The notes under the pieces are model-generated. The model did not search any database, was not told the DNA's origin, and saw only the letters and a program-made list of their open reading frames with translations. A stretch of 64,000 bases of DNA from Euzebya tangerina. GTDB lineage: Bacteria > Actinomycetota > Nitriliruptoria > Euzebyales > Euzebyaceae. The position numbers were made by a program, and so were the translations under genes. The DNA lies in contig NZ_PPDK01000001.1 in assembly GCF_003074135.1 (NCBI RefSeq), positions 1,178,001 through 1,242,000 of the forward strand. Reading direction: 5' to 3'. The first letter of the stretch is position 1. Every line of letters begins with the position of its first letter. This document shows positions 31,342 to 35,300 of the stretch, in pieces.

Positions 31342-31734
31342 TCACCGCGGGCGGCGGATCCGGATCGGCCCCTTTGCCGTCGAGGGGTCCACCACCTCGC
31401 CGCCCTGGGTTATCTCCGCCTGGCCCTTGGCGACCAGCCGCCGGGCGGCCTCCCGAACCGGCTCCATCAACGGCCGCCAGTCCTCCGGCCGCCTCTCGCG
31501 GGCCACGTCGGAGGGGCAGATCGAGCTGCTGGCCGGCCGCTGACCGAGCAGGTCGAGGACGGCGCGCTCCAGGGACTCGGTGTCCTCCCGCCGCCGACGG
31601 CGGCAGGCGTCGGAGCAGTACCTCACCTGCTCCCAGTCGTCGGCCCACTTCTTCCGCCACTCGATCCGTCGACCACAGATGGCGCAGGTCTTCTCGTCGG
31701 GCTCAGCCGCGGGACCACGTTGGCGGCCCATCAC
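31342..31734 (-). CDS. DUF2256-DUF3253 protein
   Basis: 130 residues. The first 45 contain the DUF2256 metal-binding pattern TCAICGRRIEWRKKW...RYCSDACRRRRR (CxxC and CxxxC), the remainder a DUF3253 winged-helix-like domain (LERAVLDLLGQRPASSSI, then VREAARRLVAKGQAEI). A small nucleic-acid-associated protein seems likely. It lies 82 nt downstream of the photolyase-like gene on the same strand, and DUF2256 genes are often found beside cryptochrome/photolyase-family genes, so a functional pairing is plausible. Confidence 0.85.
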   Translation of the reverse strand: MMGRQRGPAAEPDEKTCAICGRRIEWRKKWADDWEQVRYCSDACRRRRREDTESLERAVLDLLGQRPASSSICPSDVARERRPEDWRPLMEPVREAARRLVAKGQAEITQGGEVVDPSTAKGPIRIRRPR

Positions 31735-31815: not shown

Positions 31816-33033
31816 TCATGACAGCGCCTTGCGCCACGCCGTGAACGACTGGATGGACCGGTCGTGGGGTGGCCGCAACCACGGCCAAGGATGCGTGGCC
31901 ACGACGGACACCTGTGCCGACCGCGACCGCCAGCCCGGGACCGGCGCGAACGTGGTGGCCACGTCGGTGCCGCGCAGGTCCTCGGCCGGGTCGCCCAGGC
32001 AGACCGTCATGTCACGACGAGTGGCCAGGTCTGCCAACGTCTGCGTCAGGAACACCAGCCGCTTCCCCGAGAGCCGGAGCCCCTCCAGCAGCGGCTCGTC
32101 GAACACGAACACGACGGGGACCTCGGGGTGGGCCTGGAGTGCGGGGTCAGCGTCGCCGAGCGACTCCGCCGTCAGCCACACCATCTCGGGAACGCCCGCC
32201 TGCTGGGTGACCAGCGGTCCGCGCGTGAACTCGAGGTCGGGGTCGCGCTTGATCAGCGGATCCACCCGGTCCAGCCGGGGTGCCTCCTTGCCGGCTGAGG
32301 GCCACGACTGGATGGGGCAGCTGTTTCGCAGGTCGCAGGACTGACACAGGTCGGGCGCCCGCTTCTCGACCTGCCAACGGCTGAAGCCGTACCGCTTCGT
32401 GGTGCCCGTGCCGATGGTCCACTGCCACCCCAGGCGGTTGGCGGCCCGCGAGCCGTCGAGGAGGTGGGTGAACATGCGATCCTCCCCCTCCCGCCAGGTG
32501 GCGCCGTGTCGGACTGACCACTGCGAGGCCGCCCACATCCGGGTCTGATTCACCATCCAGCCGTCGGTCTCGAGCTCCTCCATCACGACGTCCATGCATG
32601 CCATCCGACGGTCCCACGGGTCCTCCGGCGGGTCGGGGGAGACCACAGGCTCACCACGCAGTGGTTCGGCCAGCCGGTGGCCGAGGCGGGCGTAGGCGTG
32701 GCGGGCGAACTCCTGCCACAGCAACTCGTCTCGGAACTTCTTGACATCCCGCTGCGGACCTCCCGCGACGTGCTCCCAGACGCGCGGCAGCGGGAGCAGC
32801 GAGTACCGGATGTACGGCGACAGCTTCGATGCCCCTCGGCGTGATGGCGGCCACACCTCGTTGCGTTTGCCGGCGTACCCACGGACGTCGTAGTCGGCCA
32901 GAGCCTGGTCCGCCGCGGTCTGACCCCCGGTGAAGGCCTCGCTGGCCCTGGGCTCGTCCGAGCAGAGGTGCCCCAGGTGCTCGGCCACCCAGCTGACGGC
33001 GTCGCCCAGCGTCGGTGTGGGGAGTTGGGGCAT
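31816..33033 (-). CDS. Photolyase/cryptochrome-like flavoprotein with domains in permuted order
   Basis: 405 residues. Residues 36-226 are a photolyase FAD-binding domain: TGGQTAADQAL, KLSPYIRYSLL (70-80), ELLWQEFARHAYARLG (103-118), WMVNQTRMWAASQW (159-172), HLLDGSRAANRLGWQWTIGTG (190-210). A Cys cluster C230-C233-C239 follows. Residues 282-355 then resemble the alpha/beta domain that precedes the FAD domain in every standard photolyase: PEMVWLTAESLGDADPAL, VPVVFVFDEPLL, KRLVFLTQTLADL, LGDPAEDL, and SFTAWRKAL at the end. There is no such domain N-terminally, since the protein begins directly at the FAD domain. The natural reading is a circular permutation. FAD site motifs are complete, so DNA repair or light sensing is possible. 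Confidence 0.85.
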   Translation of the reverse strand: MPQLPTPTLGDAVSWVAEHLGHLCSDEPRASEAFTGGQTAADQALADYDVRGYAGKRNEVWPPSRRGASKLSPYIRYSLLPLPRVWEHVAGGPQRDVKKFRDELLWQEFARHAYARLGHRLAEPLRGEPVVSPDPPEDPWDRRMACMDVVMEELETDGWMVNQTRMWAASQWSVRHGATWREGEDRMFTHLLDGSRAANRLGWQWTIGTGTTKRYGFSRWQVEKRAPDLCQSCDLRNSCPIQSWPSAGKEAPRLDRVDPLIKRDPDLEFTRGPLVTQQAGVPEMVWLTAESLGDADPALQAHPEVPVVFVFDEPLLEGLRLSGKRLVFLTQTLADLATRRDMTVCLGDPAEDLRGTDVATTFAPVPGWRSRSAQVSVVATHPWPWLRPPHDRSIQSFTAWRKALS

Positions 33034-33097
33034 GAGTCGGGGATGCCCGGCCCGCCCTGGACCGAAACCGGCGGGAGGGGATGGCCGGGATGCCGGT

Positions 33098-33216
33098 CGA
33101 ACTGCCTCCAGCGCCGGCCAAACTGCCTCCGGATGACATGGCGGGGGGCCGGAACTGGCGTTCCCGTGAGGTGATTTGCCTCCACGCCTCGTCGTCGGCG
33201 GTCCATCTGGAGGCAG
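33098..33216. promoter_or_regulatory. Cluster of TGCCTCC motifs between divergent genes
   Basis: AACTGCCTCC occurs at 33100 and 33121 (exactly 21 bp apart, two helical turns), TTTGCCTCCA at 33175, and the inverted form TGGAGGCAGA at 33208. The last two can form a hairpin. The region separates the photolyase-like gene from tadA, so a shared operator is possible. No known regulator site matches. Confidence 0.3.
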
Positions 33217-33269
33217 AACGCCCTACGCCTCGCATCGGACGGCATCCCGCGCCCGTATACGGTGGCGAC

Positions 33270-33776
33270 GTGGTGGACCAACGCGTCAGACCTGGGGACG
33301 ACCAGGCGATGGCGGAGGCGATCCGGCAGGCGCAGGAGGCGCAGGCGCACGAGGACGTTCCGGTCGGCGCGGTTGTCCTGGACAGCCACGGCGAGGTGGT
33401 CGCAACGGGGGAGAACCGGCGCGAGGTCGACCAGGACCCGACGGCGCACGCTGAGATCGTGGCCCTGCGCCGGGCGTCGGAGGTGACGGGCAACTGGCAC
33501 CTCGACGGCTGCACCCTGGTGGTGACCCTCGAGCCCTGCATGATGTGCGCCGGCGCCATCGTCCTGGCCCGTGTCGACCGAGTGGTCTACGGGGCCAGCG
33601 ACCCCAAGGCGGGCGTGGTCTCCTCCGTCGCCAGCCTGCTGGACGCGTCGTTCCTGAATCACGCGGTAGCCGTGACCGGCGGGGTTCGGGCCGAGGCGTG
33701 CGGGCGGCTCCTGACGGACTTCTTCGCCGCGCGGCGCTCAGGACGGGCTGCGGGTCGGCGACGCCCGCCGGACTGA
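33270..33776 (+). CDS. tadA: tRNA-specific adenosine deaminase
   Basis: 168 residues from GTG 33270; ATG 33309 would remove the DDQAM helix start that aligns with other TadA proteins. Zinc motif is HAE (DPTAHAEIVALR) with PCxxC in TLEPCMMCAGAIV, and VPVGAVVLD precedes it. Converts A34 to inosine in tRNA-Arg(ACG), whose gene lies 10 kb upstream in this window. A tRNA-Ser gene follows 35 nt later. Confidence 0.93.
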   Translation: MVDQRVRPGDDQAMAEAIRQAQEAQAHEDVPVGAVVLDSHGEVVATGENRREVDQDPTAHAEIVALRRASEVTGNWHLDGCTLVVTLEPCMMCAGAIVLARVDRVVYGASDPKAGVVSSVASLLDASFLNHAVAVTGGVRAEACGRLLTDFFAARRSGRAAGRRRPPD

Positions 33777-34214: not shown

Positions 34215-35300
34215 ATGACCAGCATCGCAGACCAGCATTCCGGCGTCACCATCGGGGTGGACACCCACAAGGACGCACACGTCGCGGCCGTGCTCGACCA
34301 CGCGGGGCGAGTCGTGGACACCCGCCAGTTCAGCGCTGACCGGCACGGCCACTGCGCCCTGCACGACTGGGCCATCAGGCACGGGGAGGTCGTGGCCGTC
34401 GGCATAGAGGGCACCGGCTCCTACGGCGCGGGACTGCACCGACACCTCGCTGGCGTCGGCCTGCCGTGCATCGAGGTCAACCACACGAACCGGCAGCACC
34501 GCCGCCGCCACGGCAAGTCAGACACCGCCGACGCGATCGGCGCGGCCCGCGCCGTGCAGTCCGGCCAGGCCGACGGGCGACCGCGGGGCAACGATGGGCT
34601 CGTCGAGGCCCTGCGGACCATCCGTGTCGCGCTGCGATCAGCGATCCGGTCCCGCTCTCAGGCGATCAACCAGCTTCGCGCACTGGTCGTGACCGCCCCC
34701 GAACCGCTCGCACAGCGGTTTCGTCACCTCACACGAGACGAGCTCGTCAGCCGCGCATCCGGCCTGCGGCCGAGCGCCGACAGCTCCGCGACCACCGCAA
34801 CCAAACACGCGATGCGCAGCCTCGCCCGGCGGATCCGCGTCCTCGACGTGGAGATCGAGGACCTGCGAGCCGAACGCGACCGCTATGTCTGGCTGGTGGC
34901 ACCCATCCAGCTCATGGACGAGCACGGGGTGGGCCCCGACGTGGCCTCCGACCTGCTGATCGCATTCGGTGACAACCCCGACCGCATCCGCTCGGAGTCC
35001 TCATTCGCCGCGCTCTGCGGCGTCTCACCCGTCGACGCCTCAAGCGGCAAGTCGCAGCGGCACCGCCTCAACCGCGGTGGTGACCGCCAGGCGAACAAGG
35101 CGCTGTACCGCATCGTCACCTGCCGCATGGCAAGCGACGAGAGAACCCAGCGCCACGTCGCGCAGACCATCGCCCGCGGCAAGACCAAACGAGAAGCAAT
35201 ACGAATTCTCAAGCGCTACGTCGCACGGCACATCTGGAGACTCCTGCAGCAGCACCCGCCCAGGCTTGACAACCCATAGGAGCATCTCGGGGCGTTCAGG
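34020..35300 (+). mobile_element. IS110-family insertion sequence (ends approximate)
   Basis: Defined by the transposase and its long 5' noncoding region. IS110 elements lack terminal inverted repeats and usually make no target duplication, so ends cannot be fixed from one copy. ATAGGAGC occurs on both sides of the gene (34130 and 35277), which may mark related end sequences. Inserted just downstream of tRNA-Ser(CGA). Confidence 0.6.
34215..35279 (+). CDS. IS110-family transposase
   Basis: 354 residues, full length for the family. The RuvC-like DEDD catalytic domain has Asp in IGVDTHKD, Glu in VGIEGTGSYG, and two Asp in GKSDTADAIGA; the C-terminal Tnp_20 domain carries the reactive Ser region ASSGKSQRHRLNRGGDRQAN. 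Nothing is truncated or frameshifted, so it may be active. Ribosome site GAGAGAGGG is 8-16 nt upstream of ATG. Confidence 0.96.
   Translation: MTSIADQHSGVTIGVDTHKDAHVAAVLDHAGRVVDTRQFSADRHGHCALHDWAIRHGEVVAVGIEGTGSYGAGLHRHLAGVGLPCIEVNHTNRQHRRRHGKSDTADAIGAARAVQSGQADGRPRGNDGLVEALRTIRVALRSAIRSRSQAINQLRALVVTAPEPLAQRFRHLTRDELVSRASGLRPSADSSATTATKHAMRSLARRIRVLDVEIEDLRAERDRYVWLVAPIQLMDEHGVGPDVASDLLIAFGDNPDRIRSESSFAALCGVSPVDASSGKSQRHRLNRGGDRQANKALYRIVTCRMASDERTQRHVAQTIARGKTKREAIRILKRYVARHIWRLLQQHPPRLDNP

Follow-up and report, generated by a model that had tools for sequence, protein, structure and literature searches.

A probable inverted-topology photolyase with four conserved cysteines in Euzebya tangerina and related Actinomycetota

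Introduction

Photolyases of inverted domain order have been described as Phr4/5 and Phr6 of marine Synechococcus and Cyanobium (PMC9426592, mBio 2022); survival of a phr4 mutant under ultraviolet (UV)-C was 20-30 fold lower, and the iron-sulfur (Fe-S) cysteines of Synechococcus RS9916 Phr4 are given as C169/C254/C257/C263 (PMC9426592). Inverted topology and repair of cyclobutane pyrimidine dimers (CPDs) in single-stranded DNA are ascribed to NewPHL/SPL in PMC13274461, citing Emmerich 2020. SPL is described in PMC9649867, citing Xu 2021, as a CPD photolyase with a Fe-S cluster and repair activity, and a Trp dyad was found in NewPHL of Dinoroseobacter shibae (PMC8948257). It has been proposed that the photolyase/cryptochrome family descends from short photolyases of inverted order, partly since SPLs were described as lacking an antenna domain. 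Here we analyze a gene of Euzebya tangerina which is a candidate for this class, located in a stretch of 64,000 nucleotides (contig NZ_PPDK01000001.1, positions 1,178,001 to 1,242,000; hereafter the window).

Results

The gene is an open frame of 405 amino acids (aa) that runs 33033->31816 along the minus strand, whereas stops break the plus-strand frame of 31816-33033; an earlier note on this DNA had given the coordinates correctly. Domain identities, domain order, conservation and cysteine pattern were read from sequence and predicted fold (Table 1). The sole Pfam domain above cut-off is PF03441 (FAD_binding_7, for flavin adenine dinucleotide) at residues 103-216 with 43.9 bits, and in phmmer the latter half of class I photolyases aligned to residues 28-211 (1tez, E=5.5e-14; 1tez/1owl ~5e-14), in agreement with the FAD domain that the earlier note had put first in the protein. 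Neither Pfam nor phmmer searches of the 405-aa protein found an alpha/beta domain ahead of the FAD domain. The class I layout, an N-terminal alpha/beta domain followed by the FAD domain, is reversed. AlphaFold2 modeled the whole protein with a pLDDT of 94.1 and a pTM of 0.92.

For the region behind the FAD domain, a profile of residues 276-405 was built from 52 sequences and compared by hhalign with the alpha/beta domains of canonical actinobacterial photolyases, a set in which 5 of 21 canonical loci got through the motif filter. The probability was 95% with a score of 54; the reversed profile scored 11.5, and no more than 18.7 was reached when columns were shuffled 50 times. Alignment of the full profiles gave two blocks in reverse order, 14-216 matching 179-386 and 279-354 matching 6-89 of the canonical proteins. 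Against the PDB, the C-terminal profile matched solely photolyases and cryptochromes, at their N-terminal domain, each match being weak (best E=0.075). The Euzebya tangerina sequence alone did not match PF00875, which was touched by 15 of the 52 profile members (best E 0.012). Direct matches, under the Pfam curated cut-off, were found in a Deinococcus relative (E=7e-4 at 300-395) and in a separate 173-aa open reading frame (ORF) that constitutes the alpha/beta domain in Deinococcus sp. QL22 (E=2.3e-4). The isolated domain was predicted by AlphaFold2 with a pLDDT of 92.8 and a pTM of 0.83, and the top 23 structures returned by Foldseek were all photolyases or cryptochromes (TM-score 0.48-0.64), other folds following later and with lower probability. 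Because the profile-profile comparison, the Pfam matches in Deinococcus relatives and the confident domain model with its photolyase/cryptochrome matches agree, residues 282-405 are, as judged by profile and model, a genuine alpha/beta domain, a homologue of the one that ordinary photolyases carry at the N-terminus. The antenna-type domain which the earlier note had located here is thus upheld by sequence profile, Pfam matches in relatives and predicted fold, and the hidden Markov model alignments it had proposed, of this region to N-terminal photolyase domains and of residues 36-226 to FAD domains, both gave matches. Its wording "circularly permuted" holds as an inverted domain order, seen in the reverse hhalign blocks, and is as a term looser than the evidence.

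The cysteines C146, C230, C233 and C239 are all kept in 75/75 actinobacterial and 3/3 intact Deinococcus sequences, and in the alignment of relatives they are absent from the alphaproteobacterial NewPHL-like proteins. Their spacing is 84-3-6 in the 405-aa protein and 85-3-6 in Synechococcus RS9916 Phr4. The cluster of three cysteines recognized in the earlier note is confirmed as invariant, while the equally invariant C146 had been overlooked. A selenocysteine at one of the cysteine positions, suggested by TGA codons that had been flagged inside many of the Rhodococcoides homologues, was rejected because eight aligned Rhodococcoides sequences have no internal stop; the TGA was taken to be the ordinary stop codon immediately after the matched region.

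Residue equivalences were taken from the alignment to A. nidulans photolyase, whose residues are named first. N349 corresponds to N162, D380 to D193 and N386, the FAD N5 Asn, to N199; on the lesion side E283 corresponds to E103, W286 to W106 and W392 to W205. The electron-transfer pair W390 and W367 is represented by W203-W180. V130 stands in place of W314, the distal member of the Trp triad, so that a Trp dyad remains. All of these mapped catalytic residues (N162, D193, N199, E103, W106, W205, W203, W180) are invariant among the relatives. The protein thus combines the features of the SPL/Phr6 type (N-terminal PF03441 without a preceding alpha/beta domain, a C-terminal alpha/beta domain and four cysteines) with the inverted topology and Trp dyad of NewPHL (W203 and W180 kept, V130 at W314).

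Scanning a single genome for each species gave 78 relatives, nearly all of them full length and of the same domain order, whose membership in the Actinomycetota was taken from record titles. They include Acidimicrobiales, Nitriliruptoraceae, Nocardioides, Rhodococcoides, Patulibacter, Modestobacter and Actinomarina, among others, and align from the same N-terminal region as the Euzebya protein. This search for homologues of the same order had been suggested in the earlier note, and the 78 actinobacterial loci sharing one layout also led us to reject an artefact of frameshift or rearrangement. In an evenly drawn sample of Actinomycetota the gene is carried by 17/246 genomes, and full-length relatives occur in 21/37 genomes of the genus Rhodococcoides (the genus of locus L023). 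The SPL that Xu et al. assayed reportedly came from Rhodococcus fascians and would be a close relative of these Rhodococcoides matches. One locus titled as a Bifidobacterium breve metagenome-assembled genome (L026) holds a gene 61% identical to that of Euzebya together with a DUF2256-DUF3253 neighbor; the record is most likely mislabelled or contaminated.

More distant relatives reside on Deinococcus plasmids (28-34% identity) and match the Euzebya family profile at 100% over 20-379, the alpha/beta domain taken separately at 98.3%. On a plasmid of Deinococcus sp. QL22 (L087:3001-4292), the FAD part and the alpha/beta part are two ORFs with a 4-base overlap, a split which parallels that of Synechococcus Phr4/Phr5. 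NewPHL-like relatives are also found in alphaproteobacteria, where the profile alignment is colinear over 55-408 (99.8%) and mostly driven by the FAD domain. The C-terminal profile of the Euzebya family alone did not recognize the alphaproteobacterial C-terminal region, the published "Z-domain" (0.3%); the colinear alignment obtained with the whole protein is suggestive only of homology between this domain and the alpha/beta domain.

Table 1. Features of the inverted-order gene and its surroundings, in positions of the window
Feature	Position	Strand	Basis
Probable photolyase of inverted order with Fe-S cysteines (405 aa; SPL/NewPHL/Phr6 class)	31816..33033	(-)	open frame; PF03441; 78 relatives of same layout; AlphaFold2
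FAD-binding catalytic domain, ~residues 36-226	32356..32928	(-)	phmmer and hhalign against class I photolyases; residue equivalences with A. nidulans photolyase
C146, additional invariant cysteine, putative Fe-S ligand	32596..32598	(-)	conservation
C230-x2-C233-x5-C239, other three proposed Fe-S ligands	32317..32346	(-)	invariant; spacing
Photolyase-type alpha/beta (Rossmann-like) domain, residues 282-405	31819..32190	(-)	hhalign, PDB profile matches, AlphaFold2 and Foldseek
DUF2256-DUF3253 fusion, next gene downstream, gap ~80 bases, not part of the enzyme	31342..31734	(-)	PF10013 60.5 bits, PF11625 95.9 bits
TadA-like deaminase, upstream, divergent	33081-33776		

Since longest-ORF gene calling gave unreliable neighbors in the G+C-rich relative loci, we restrict the neighborhood claim to the DUF2256-DUF3253 match. 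A homologue of this protein was found in 7/78 relative loci, and it is a possible functional partner of the photolyase. A transposase-like ORF at 34215-35279 (+) has a GVDTHKD motif near its start and was judged IS110-like from its sequence. Elsewhere in the host genome, a canonical 474-aa photolyase is encoded, as well as an FbiC-type protein for the synthesis of 8-hydroxy-5-deazaflavin (8-HDF; FO), an 872-aa frame with 513 bits to TIGR03551; as a consequence, 8-HDF is probably available.

In an Actinomarina locus, the gene directly behind the inverted photolyase (L043:6158-6577) resembles F420H2-dependent quinone reductases (132 bits to PF04075), and locus L040 has a 149-aa ORF in the matching position. 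The Actinomarina rhodopsin has been reported to adjoin a "photolyase" (PMC7771536). We rejected the inverted gene as this rhodopsin-adjacent photolyase, as in the two Actinomarina loci inspected it lies elsewhere, beside a recG-like gene and an F420H2-quinone-reductase-like gene; the one beside the rhodopsin is probably a different photolyase.

Discussion

The Euzebya gene most likely encodes an actinobacterial inverted-topology photolyase of the NewPHL/SPL type, its closest published layout being Phr4/5 and Phr6, which would perform light-driven repair of UV lesions with the help of a Fe-S cluster and a C-terminal domain closing the FAD site. From the published relatives we infer the FAD chemistry, the Fe-S cluster and the repair of CPDs, possibly on single-stranded DNA. 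The N-terminal domain would bind reduced FAD in the usual pocket and take in the UV lesion; blue light would excite FADH-, which would donate an electron to the lesion in the pocket and thereby split it, and the dyad W203, W180 would photoreduce the FAD. The four cysteines would hold a Fe-S cluster, probably [4Fe-4S]. The alpha/beta domain is expected to pack on the FAD domain and close its site, and an antenna, for instance 8-HDF, may be bound to it, although an antenna pigment in this place is a guess. By analogy, the most likely job of the protein is FADH--driven repair of UV lesions, accessory to the canonical photolyase of the same genome. The existing annotation as "FAD-binding domain-containing protein" is thereby improved upon.

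Some observations weigh against this assignment. On the FAD side the protein departs from class I by D382->S195, R287->Q107 and T240->A68, which leaves room for an altered function. In a midpoint-rooted tree of the FAD domain comprising few rows, the actinobacterial, Deinococcus and alphaproteobacterial NewPHL-like rows do not form a single supported clade apart from the canonical photolyases. Furthermore, the guess made in PMC9426592 for Phr4/Phr6, which bear the Fe-S cysteines, was repair of 6-4 photoproducts and not of CPDs.

The last point leads to an inverted-order (6-4) photolyase, as proposed there for Phr4/5 and Phr6 from their Fe-S cysteines, and the four cysteines of the Euzebya protein do resemble those of the FeS-BCP (6-4) photolyases. 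We regard this as unlikely: class I/III CPD photolyases are what the FAD domain matches (class I 1owl, E=1.9e-23), and the FeS-BCP PhrB hardly at all (4dja, E=0.15), and SPL is described as an Fe-S CPD photolyase in PMC9649867. Because the FAD domain is nearer to class I than to FeS-BCP sequences and in view of the published SPL activity, the repaired lesion is probably the CPD, as far as sequence and analogy indicate.

Less probable still is a cryptochrome-like blue-light receptor of inverted layout, in which FAD photoreduction would signal to a partner without DNA repair. Such a role could be accommodated by a family common to photolyases and cryptochromes, by the substitutions near FAD, by the canonical photolyase already present in the genome and by the DUF2256-DUF3253 neighbor common to some relatives. 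It fits poorly with the retained lesion-side residues E103, W106, N162, M166 and W205, and published members of the class repair DNA (SPL, PMC9649867) or show a UV phenotype (phr4, PMC9426592). Finally, an unrelated Rossmann-like C-terminal domain with a merely generic antenna-domain likeness, compatible with the missing PF00875 match of the Euzebya sequence alone and with the moderate TM-scores, is hardly credible considering that profile and best Foldseek hits are confined to photolyases and cryptochromes, that Deinococcus relatives match PF00875 directly and that the shuffled and reversed controls fail.

For the reading as an inverted-topology photolyase, the C-terminal domain bears on the history of the family. 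Profiles and the confident predicted fold indicate that an antenna-type domain is kept in the actinobacterial Fe-S branch, and such a real C-terminal domain would favor rearrangement over a domain-poor ancestor. We tentatively raise the possibility, doubtful at present, that in the actinobacterial and Deinococcus Fe-S proteins it is a complete pigment-binding antenna domain, e.g., for 8-HDF, in the same three-dimensional position as in ordinary photolyases. If true, the published view that SPLs lack such a domain would mislead as regards this branch, which would consist of true permuted photolyases and not of antenna-less ancestors, with bearing on the rooting of the family.

Compared with the described systems, class I CPD photolyases (A. 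nidulans 1owl, T. thermophilus 1iqr) share the FAD pocket and the lesion-side residues but have the opposite domain order, no Fe-S cysteines and a Trp triad instead of the dyad. The FeS-BCP or prokaryotic (6-4) photolyase PhrB has the four-Cys Fe-S motif in common and differs in its opposite domain order and weak sequence match. NewPHL of Dinoroseobacter shibae and Methylobacterium mesophilicum (Emmerich 2020, as cited in PMC13274461 and PMC9426592) likewise show an N-terminal FAD domain, a C-terminal second domain and a Trp dyad and are colinear over most of their length, whereas the alphaproteobacterial NewPHL-like proteins are without the four cysteines. SPL shares the Fe-S cysteines, a class I-like FAD domain and the lack of an N-terminal alpha/beta domain; it is described without an alpha/beta antenna domain, which the Euzebya protein has at its C-terminus. 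Phr4/5 and Phr6, likened here by their published description, have the same order, FAD first and alpha/beta last, and four Fe-S cysteines as in the Euzebya protein; they belong to another phylum, and Phr4/5 is split in two ORFs, while the Euzebya gene is a single one. The earlier statement that every standard photolyase or cryptochrome has the opposite order, and with it any claim of an unprecedented order, therefore fails, since the literature already contains inverted NewPHL, SPL, Phr4/5 and Phr6, and one of these agrees with the Euzebya protein in both order and cysteines (PMC9426592, PMC13274461). The gene is a new example, and the actinobacterial branch, of a class in the literature since 2020-2022 (Emmerich 2020, Xu 2021, mBio 2022).
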